A stretch of 64,000 nucleotides of DNA, taken from contig NZ_JAGPYQ010000002.1 of assembly GCF_018070025.1 (NCBI RefSeq), positions 744,001 to 808,000 on the forward strand. Reading direction: 5' to 3'. How positions within the stretch are numbered: the stretch's first letter is position 1; every line of letters begins with the position of its first letter. This document shows positions 5,222 through 31,552 of this stretch, piece by piece. The DNA comes from Streptomyces liliiviolaceus. GTDB lineage: Bacteria > Actinomycetota > Actinomycetes > Streptomycetales > Streptomycetaceae. Both the position numbers and the translations under genes were made by a program. Below the pieces are notes generated by a model. The model searched no databases. It saw only the letters and a list, made by a program, of their open reading frames with translations, and was not told the origin of the DNA.

Positions 5222-6718
<1,497 letters not shown>

Positions 6719-30664: not shown

Positions 30665-30738
30665 CGCCCACGGCCGCGCGCAGAGGCACGACAGAGGTAC
30701 AGACGTACAGAGGTATCGATTCGCAGGTTTCGCACAGA

Positions 30739-30780
30739 ACGAAGCCGCCCGCATGGTTCCCCCGTGGCGGGCGGCTTCGT
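30739..30780. terminator. Bidirectional terminator of uppP and the permuted tRNA
   Basis: A perfect 14-bp stem (30739-30752 with 30767-30780, arm ACGAAGCCGCCCGC) closes a 14-nt loop containing a smaller CATGG/CCGTG. It is 75 nt after the uppP stop. Read on the minus strand it lies directly after the RNA at 30788-30922. Confidence 0.85.
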
Positions 30781-30787
30781 GCTCGGT

Positions 30788-30922
30788 GTCCGGAGATCGG
30801 ACTCGGCGGCGGCGACGTAAGTGTCCTGGGCCGCTGGACGACACCGGCGCGAGCCGGTGACGGGATTCGAACCCGCGTTTCTCTCTTGAGAGGAGAAGTA
30901 GCCGCTGCCTTCGCACCCGGAC
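30788..30922 (-). ncRNA. Precursor transcript of the permuted tRNA, with pairing ends
   Basis: On the minus strand, the flanks of the two tRNA halves pair with each other. GTCCGG (30922-30917) matches CCGGAC (30793-30788), and GGCAGCGGC (30909-30901) matches GCCGCCGCC (30813-30805) with one A-C mismatch. This leaves TACT opposite a 7-nt loop next to the junction. A -10-like TACCGT (30935-30930) would start transcription near 30922, and the hairpin at 30780-30739 would end it. The limits are inferred from pairing, not from a known family. Confidence 0.6.
30821..30896 (-). tRNA. Circularly permuted tRNA-Glu (anticodon CUC)
   Basis: Read 5' to 3' on the minus strand, the 3' part comes first. 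It holds an anticodon strand TCTC (30896-30893), loop CTCTCAA with anticodon CTC (30890-30888), stem GAGAG, variable AAAC, T arm GCGGG-TTCGAAT-CCCGT and acceptor CACCGGC (30859-30853). After the linker TCGC comes the 5' part: acceptor GCCGGTG (30848-30842), T8, C9, D stem GTCC, loop AGCGGCCCA, stem GGAC, A26, C27 (30821). Rejoined, acceptor 7/7 and D 4/4 pairs form, with a 5/5 anticodon stem. U8, A14, GG18-19, A21, U33, G53-C61, TTC and A58 are all present. The D arm and the missing base 47 fit tRNA-Glu. No CCA is encoded. Confidence 0.75.
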
Positions 30923-30991
30923 GTGTACGACGGTAGCGGGTACGGCTCTGGCGGGCACCCGAATAAATTCCGGGCGGCCGGCACTCCCCGG

Positions 30992-31552
30992 TCACTCGGT
31001 CGGGAAGGCCTCGGCCCAGGGTTCGCGTTCGATCCGCAGCCCGTTGAGCACGTACGCGATGGTGCGGTACCAGCCCGCCAGGACGAGGAACTCCAGGGCT
31101 TCCTGTTCCCCGAGGTGGTCGCGGAGCGCGGTCCAGGCCTCGTCGGTGAGGCGGGCCGTGTCGTGGAGCTGGTCGACGGCCGCCAGGAGCGCGCTCTGAC
31201 GGGGCGTCCAGACCGGATCGTCCGGGGCGCCGGTCACCGTCAGGGGGATCTGCTCCGGAGTCAGGTCCGCGGCCTCGGCGTACGCCACCACGTGGGCGCC
31301 CCACTCGTAGGCGCAGTCGCAGCGTGCCGCCACCCGGAAGATGACCAGTTCGCGGTCGGCGTCGGGGAGCAGGCCGTGGACGAGCAGGCTCGCGCCGAGT
31401 TCCCGCATGCGGGAGGCGAGGTCGGGGTGGCGTTCCAGGACCTTGAAGAGCATCAGGGGTTCCTGGGTGACGCCCGGTGGCATCCAGCGGCGTAAGGCGC
31501 GTTCGGACTCGGGATCGTAGGGCGGCGTGATGCCGTCGATGCGTTGCTTCAT
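30992..31552 (-). CDS. Carboxymuconolactone decarboxylase (AhpD-like) family protein
   Basis: Helical protein of 186 residues of the CMD/AhpD superfamily. The active-site-like segment AARCDCAYEWGAHVVAYAEAA (about residues 77-97) has the Cys-x-Cys and downstream His typical of the YEWxxH subgroup. These proteins act as decarboxylases or peroxidase-like thiol enzymes; the exact reaction is unknown. It is divergent from a small HxlR-type regulator, which may control it. Confidence 0.82.
   Translation of the reverse strand: MKQRIDGITPPYDPESERALRRWMPPGVTQEPLMLFKVLERHPDLASRMRELGASLLVHGLLPDADRELVIFRVAARCDCAYEWGAHVVAYAEAADLTPEQIPLTVTGAPDDPVWTPRQSALLAAVDQLHDTARLTDEAWTALRDHLGEQEALEFLVLAGWYRTIAYVLNGLRIEREPWAEAFPTE

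Follow-up and report, generated by a model that had tools for sequence, protein, structure and literature searches.

A predicted Y RNA with a permuted tRNA-like body and an anticodon arm in Streptomyces liliiviolaceus

Results

Organization of the locus

The window is the whole 64,000-nt stretch of S. liliiviolaceus DNA analyzed here. Its minus strand carries an RNA unit at 30922–30788, located between the convergent gene uppP (BacA family) and a gene whose end lies at 30992. Direct reading of this strand places an anticodon arm, variable loop, T arm, and 3′ acceptor strand at 30897–30853, followed by the 5′ acceptor strand, U8, D arm, and position 26 at 30848–30822. Read circularly, the unit corresponds to a tRNA-Glu(CUC) whose opening falls between positions 26 and 27. 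A previous sequence-only reading had proposed permuted halves at 30896–30853 and 30848–30821, which is correct to within one base, and the 4-nt linker that it placed between them was confirmed as TCGC (30852–30849). Six helices are present in 30922–30788, namely the outer helices P1 and P2, the anticodon arm, the T arm, the acceptor hairpin, and the D arm. P1 comprises 6 bp (GTCCGG/CCGGAC) and P2 pairs GGCAGCGGC with GCCGCCGCC at eight of nine positions, just as had been claimed for the flanks, and both flank helices covary. The features of the locus are as follows:

30788–30922, minus strand: full predicted Y RNA, bounded by the two strands of the outer stem (supported by homologues, covariation, and relatives linked to Ro60)
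30930–30935, minus strand: predicted promoter-like −10 box TACCGT (TANNNT at −18 or −17 from GGTGCG in relatives)
30917–30922, minus strand: 5′ strand GTCCGG of outer helix P1, partner 30793–30788 (both-side changes in 4 of 6 pairs; 100% of cells paired)
30788–30793, minus strand: 3′ strand CCGGAC of P1 (covariation)
30910–30916, minus strand: 5′ side GTGCGAA of the internal loop, facing 30804–30794, within the near-invariant GGTGCGnAGG; putative Ro60-binding site
30901–30909, minus strand: 5′ strand GGCAGCGGC of helix P2, pairing with 30813–30805 (both-side changes in 5 of 8 counted pairs; 97.1% of cells paired)
30805–30813, minus strand: 3′ strand GCCGCCGCC of P2 (covariation)
30881–30897, minus strand: anticodon arm TTCTC-CTCTCAA-GAGAG, triplet CTC at 30890–30888 (both-side changes in 2 of 5 pairs; 100% paired)
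30877–30880, minus strand: variable loop AAAC, whose C48 would make a Levitt pair with G15 (15–48 covariation in homologues)
30860–30876, minus strand: T arm GCGGG-TTCGAAT-CCCGT (direct reading, Rfam match, and covariation)
30853–30859, minus strand: 3′ strand CACCGGC of the acceptor stem (both-side changes in 6 of 7 pairs among homologues)
30849–30852, minus strand: acceptor-closing loop TCGC, the linker of the sequence-only reading (variable in homologues)
30842–30848, minus strand: 5′ strand GCCGGTG of the acceptor stem (covariation)
30823–30839, minus strand: D arm GTCC-AGCGGCCCA-GGAC (both-side changes in 2 of 4 pairs)
30740–30779, minus strand: 13-bp hairpin CGAAGCCGCCCGC ... GCGGGCGGCTTCG (direct reading; predicted termination)

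The 13-bp hairpin at 30740–30779 is likely a terminator, perhaps one common to uppP on the opposite strand. On the plus strand, 30726–30782 forms a hairpin with a C-rich loop that gave a sub-threshold match to 6C RNA (25.2 bits, gathering score 47). This opposite-strand match and a match to tRNA (19.1 bits) were discarded as below threshold. The best Rfam match on the minus strand was to YrlA; it was weak (19.5 bits, E 0.35) and missed the gathering score of 69.

ARAGORN classified the rejoined halves, provided with filler flanks, as tRNA-Glu(CUC), in agreement with the complete cloverleaf of the sequence-only reading. On the linear window, it called a tRNA-Glu at 30851–30922. We read this call as a misreading of the permuted RNA, in which the 5′ strand of the outer stem was evidently taken for an acceptor stem and D arm. 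Besides this call, no tRNA gene was found in the window.

Conservation and covariation of the fold

The folding energy of the unit was not distinct from that of shuffled sequences (z = −1.19; an equal or better fold was reached by 25 of 200 shuffles). Since energy alone does not separate the RNA from shuffles, the case for the structure rests on covariation among full-length relatives, which were obtained by homology search of 100 genomes. In a plain MAFFT alignment of 26 homologues, 98.2% of pair cells were standard pairs and 21 of 35 pairs had changed on both sides, compared to 4–6 pairs and 36–49% paired cells in slid-partner controls. RNAalifold recovered the identical six helices unprompted from the same alignment, with P2 one pair shorter and three additional pairs in the internal loop. 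Covariation in the stems and flank helices, which the sequence-only reading had named as a check, is hence present in all six helices.

The window copy belongs to a subfamily of 23 copies with the D stem GTCC/GTCT, in which 99.4% of cells are paired and 12 pairs have changed on both sides, against 0–3 in slid controls. Upstream of the RNA, a TANNNT box at −18 or −17 from GGTGCG is conserved in 22 of the 23 subfamily members and in 59 of 65 other type-1 copies, which bears out the promoter-like TACCGT reported earlier. The outer-stem motif GGTGCGnAGG is near-invariant in the homologue alignment. The acceptor-closing loop varies and is 3–11 nt long across 248 homologues (the viral and genome-pattern ones being among the matches listed).

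Positions 15 and 48, which form the Levitt pair of tRNAs, showed a consistent pattern of exchange. Homology-search copies have G-C in 117 cases, A-U in 11, and one other combination; viral copies, among the matches listed, have G-C in 30, A-U in 15, and four other combinations; and genome-pattern copies, likewise among the matches listed, have G-C in 56 and A-U in 14. Neither G-U nor A-C occurs in any of the three sets. This switching between G-C and A-U without G-U or A-C makes it very likely that the predicted fold is a tRNA-like L-shape.

Relatives are associated with Ro60 (Rsr) genes

Matches to Rsr lay approximately 90–1,720 nt from relatives and, where found, were invariably on the same strand. 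In the genus of the window, most relatives on long enough loci are situated about 115–450 nt upstream of an Rsr-like gene. A same-strand Rsr/Ro60 gene accompanies 73 of the 129 homology-search copies, with 31 of the other 56 on loci of 2.5 kb or shorter. The corresponding counts are 57 of 70 for genome-pattern copies and 43 of 49 for viral-contig copies (34 with Rsr downstream, 9 with Rsr upstream), both among the matches listed. The query Rsr gave a TROVE match above the Pfam cut-off and a VWA match below it.

Several rsr loci (L038, L040, and L046) hold three Y RNAs in a row: type 1, which has the anticodon arm, a short stem, and type 2. The type-2 RNAs of Streptomyces rsr loci share with type 1 the outer-stem motif, TACTTC, and the permuted T-acceptor-D body, and stand as its tandem neighbours. 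They differ in that the second copies of L006, L008, L010, and L017 have no CUNNNAA 7-nt loop, and they are nearer to the Rfam YrlA model (58.4 bits for L017, 41.2 bits for L008). Overall, YrlA scores were 31.5–43 bits for type-1 relatives and 41–58 bits for type-2 neighbours, and none of the 18 loci tested (Streptomyces, other phyla, and viral contigs) held a match at the YrlA gathering score. The short Y RNA-like stem between types 1 and 2 in L038, L040, and L046, CCTCCCGGTGCG ... GATCTCGGGAGG, has no tRNA domain.

A pattern scan of named genomes detected the permuted body with an anticodon arm, among the matches listed, in Acidobacteriaceae, Bradyrhizobium, Hyphomonadaceae, Ruminococcus, Desulfosporosinus, Akkermansiaceae, Opitutaceae, and Actinomadura, among others. 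The permuted body was present in 46 of the first 80 named-genome records, several of the records being metagenome bins. Dozens of IMG/VR contigs (L318–L437, among the matches listed) also carry Y RNAs near Rsr genes, some with Pro, Gln, Leu, or Arg triplets together with G37.

Several characteristics of a Y RNA are found together in this family, namely permuted T, acceptor, and D arms, paired ends with a conserved internal loop, and Rsr beside relatives. Since most checkable relatives in bacteria and viral contigs adjoin a Ro60 gene, a Y RNA imitating a tRNA is most likely, rather than a working tRNA. From these sequence comparisons, we consider it highly probable that the product of the locus is a YrlA-like Y RNA, that its effector domain is a complete permuted tRNA mimic with an anticodon arm, and that it works uncut as a linear RNA.

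The anticodon arm follows tRNA-like loop rules

Among homologues, the anticodon loop keeps C32, U33, A37, and A38, and the triplet is variable. In the homology-search and viral sets combined (viral copies among the matches listed), U33, A38, and a purine at position 37 are mostly retained and the triplet is free, with 39 kinds observed. No stop anticodon occurs among the 173 copies with U33 in these sets (viral copies among the matches listed). Ser, Leu, or Tyr triplets are found on bodies with short variable loops in 22 of these 173 (viral copies again among the matches listed), given a descriptor that detects variable loops of 3–6 nt and would miss copies with long ones. Bacterial Ser, Leu, and Tyr tRNAs are not known to have short variable loops.

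Both the homology-search and the genome-pattern sets favour a CU...AA loop by construction, and the genome pattern demanded CU and AA. The viral scan left the loop unspecified and is free of this bias. It returned 114 distinct matches among the matches listed, 47 of which contain the permuted body. Both free stem positions are paired in 45 of these 47 copies (among the matches listed), compared to a mean of 11.0 and a maximum of 20 in 1,000 shuffles. The same 47 copies, among the matches listed, have U33 in 45 cases, A38 in 43, and A or G at position 37 in 35 and 11 cases, respectively. The other 67 of the 114 matches listed, in which the descriptor detected no permuted body, were excluded from the loop counts; both free positions are likewise paired in 45 of them, and ordinary tRNAs probably account for many.

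Unanchored hairpin scoring gave spurious loops, four of 95 appearing unreal (L049, the second in L082, L099, and L125), and viral loop counts were therefore anchored on TAC. The anchored set required TAC, at least four of five stem pairs, and a variable loop of 3–6 nt; it comprises 49 viral copies among the matches listed and may still contain a few type-2 RNAs (e.g., L024 with TCTCTCA). Within it, G37 accompanies G36 in 13 of 15 copies compared to one of 34 others (Fisher p = 5e-9, with related copies treated as independent), and A37 accompanies U36 in 31 of 31, again among the matches listed. This trend mirrors tRNA rules associated with TrmD (G36-G37) and t6A (U36-A37). It was weaker in the homology-search set (U36-A37 in 76 of 87 copies, G36-G37 in three of six), which counts against the reading of a tRNA-mimic Y RNA.

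An N-CCA sequence is found at the start of the closing loop in 19 of 129 homology-search copies and, among the matches listed, in 10 of 70 genome-pattern copies and none of 49 viral copies. In a group of Streptomyces copies (L006, L010, L172, and others), the loop begins with ACCA, like an encoded tRNA 3′ end.

The window copy and its genome

The window copy is an orphan that neighbours uppP and has no Rsr alongside, which counts against the Y RNA reading. The sole Rsr match in this genome is a gene on another contig that has been cut to residues 1–217 of 527. At this locus (contig 1, L038:5713–6420), the Rsr match stops at about residue 217 of 527 and gives way to an unrelated open tail. No Pfam match was found in the cut protein, and it resembles solved TROVE proteins (E 4e-13). 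Because its frame has no internal stops, the loss looks recent. By eye, the type-1 Y RNA two places upstream of the cut gene (L038, about 5375–5420) has lost its tRNA-like body and retained its stem, and a further two Y RNAs at the former rsr locus appear intact, one of them also matched by the homology search.

Other subfamily members differ in their surroundings. The subfamily lies mostly away from rsr, with uppP adjoining four of the 23 copies (L001, L002, L092, and L105) and one copy (L117) adjoining an rsr; loci L166 and L169 were too short to tell their neighbours. We discarded the notion of a common neighbourhood, as, in a comparison of 25 orphan loci, no gene recurred in more than four. 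Of the 22 genomes with the subfamily, 19 encode a full-length Rsr, one an interrupted Rsr, one none, and the genome of the window the cut gene. Eight hand-picked genomes without a strong match among the matches listed contained two full-length Rsr genes, one fragment, and five cases of none, and a TROVE match was present in 38 of 61 members of the genus sample. The window copy likely served Rsr in trans and recently lost its partner; in this genome it likely either functions independently of Rsr or is being lost.

Discussion

Relationship to known permuted RNAs

A permuted tRNA-like RNA is already known from bacteria, given that the crystal structure of the Y RNA YrlA (6CU1) superposes on tRNA by circular permutation, as stated in an excerpt of PMC11472068. 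Excerpts of a second source name the D, T, and acceptor arms as the tRNA-like parts of YrlA and describe its modification by the tRNA enzymes DusA and TruB (PMC8394870). Excerpts of PMC7790460 describe a Y RNA of Deinococcus as the tether that holds Rsr and PNPase together when structured RNA is degraded. They leave the purpose of Y RNAs open and mention, as one possibility, that Salmonella YrlA might competitively inhibit an anticodon nuclease.

The RNA described here resembles YrlA (RF02553; Salmonella, 6CU1) in the permuted order of T arm, acceptor hairpin, and D arm, in an outer stem built from both ends, and in the Rsr gene beside relatives. It differs in the position of the window copy away from Rsr and in the addition of a full anticodon arm. 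The Rfam YrlA model has a stem running into the outer helix in place of this arm, and the Rfam alignment of the L017 type-1 RNA inserts 15 nt there. In excerpts of the open-licence literature, no description of an anticodon arm in any Y RNA was found; an earlier mention in primary papers or reviews is possible. Compared with the Y RNAs described in those excerpts, the full anticodon arm appears to be the unexpected helix.

Alternative explanations

The sequence-only reading had inferred either a permuted tRNA matured through cleavage by RNase P and joining by a ligase such as RtcB, or the relic of such a tRNA. As a true permuted tRNA gene, the locus would yield tRNA-Glu(CUC) after a cut in the acceptor loop and rejoining in the anticodon region. 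ARAGORN does regard the rejoined sequence as a sound tRNA-Glu(CUC), the genome encodes an RtcB ligase and so has a gene content compatible with ligation, and N-CCA follows the acceptor in the homology-search and genome-pattern copies counted above (the latter among the matches listed), though in none of the 49 viral copies listed. The layout also recalls the permuted tRNA genes of algae and archaea, with the 3′ half before the 5′ half, a short intervening loop, and a complete rejoined cloverleaf. According to an excerpt of PMC3978253, such transcripts are presumably circularized by the tRNA splicing machinery, which would act at a bulge-helix-bulge junction. Judged by eye, the junction here consists of a 9-position stem with 3-nt and 8-nt linkers, and a strict bulge-helix-bulge motif was not seen. 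The flanks here form a conserved Y RNA stem and rank among the most strongly covarying parts, even though processing would discard them and a mature tRNA would have no use for them. Moreover, the 'anticodon' differs between species on near-identical bodies and mismatches tRNA identity in a share of relatives, including the 22 of 173 U33 copies with Ser, Tyr, or Leu triplets and a short variable loop (viral copies among the matches listed; 3–6 nt descriptor). The genome already has three ordinary tRNA-Glu(CUC) genes, a check that the sequence-only reading had proposed, and the relatives sit with Ro60. With homologues that are Ro60-linked Y RNAs, the processing proposal is unsupported, and we consider a permuted tRNA gene very improbable. 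An origin as a chance by-product of a tandem tRNA array or as an integration scar, in which the 3′ half of a tRNA would simply precede the 5′ half of its neighbour, is hardly credible for this locus. Permuted bodies can arise in this way, as the model also matches tandem tRNA genes, such as G000:C1:3092524–3092602, which spans two tRNA genes when checked against the tRNA coordinates of the window's genome, and matches with an identical score and model range are found in many genomes (among the matches listed). However, the window holds no other tRNA gene, covariation extends to the outer helices, and the unit is found repeatedly, with a promoter-like box of its own, at different places.

A different question is whether, in this genome, the window copy is what remains of a decaying Y RNA system, which is compatible with the Y RNA explanation for the family. 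The truncation of Rsr at 217 of 527 residues, the reduction by eye of the Y RNA two places upstream to its stem, and the absence of Rsr beside the window copy would all fit such decay. Against this, every helix of the window copy is intact, the subfamily keeps its pairing by compensatory change, the truncated frame lacks internal stops such that the loss looks recent, and two other Y RNAs at the old locus look intact by eye. We therefore remain doubtful of decay while granting it a real chance.

Tandem tRNAs read across their spacer match the permuted model with E near 1e-9; they may be the source of the permuted Y RNA body, and they can mislead searches.

Proposed function and implications

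By analogy with studied Y RNAs, a mechanism can be proposed for the YrlA-like Y RNA that we favour. On the basis of excerpts of PMC8394870 and PMC4726728, Rsr is predicted to bind the outer stem that carries GGUGCGnAGG. The tRNA-like end may engage the exoribonuclease PNPase and tRNA-handling enzymes, and the resulting link between Rsr and PNPase would feed structured RNAs to the nuclease. The anticodon arm could complete the mimic for factors that read positions 32–38, such as modification enzymes and anticodon nucleases. The triplet would be free if such factors read the loop frame and the 36–37 pair, not the codon.

More tentatively, and at somewhat less than even chances, we propose that the widespread Ro60-linked class, present in several phyla and on viral contigs, is an inside-out tRNA. 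In this proposal, the acceptor is sealed by a loop, the molecule is opened at 26/27 by the Ro60-binding stem, and the anticodon loop has a working shape that obeys the 36–37 and 15–48 rules; the RNA would then serve as a universal bait that ties Ro60/PNPase to anticodon-loop enzymes.

In terms of what is added, a permuted tRNA-like Y RNA with three described arms was known from the excerpted literature, and the anticodon arm appears to be the new part. At a practical level, a linear tRNA finder can mislabel a permuted Y RNA gene as a tRNA, as ARAGORN did at 30851–30922. The bait proposal, if true, would connect Y RNAs with tRNA damage. Should the fourth arm indeed be retained, with U33, A38, the 36–37 rule, and a freely varying triplet, a factor that touches the anticodon loop probably reads the mimicry, and this would provide a direct handle on the function of bacterial Y RNAs.
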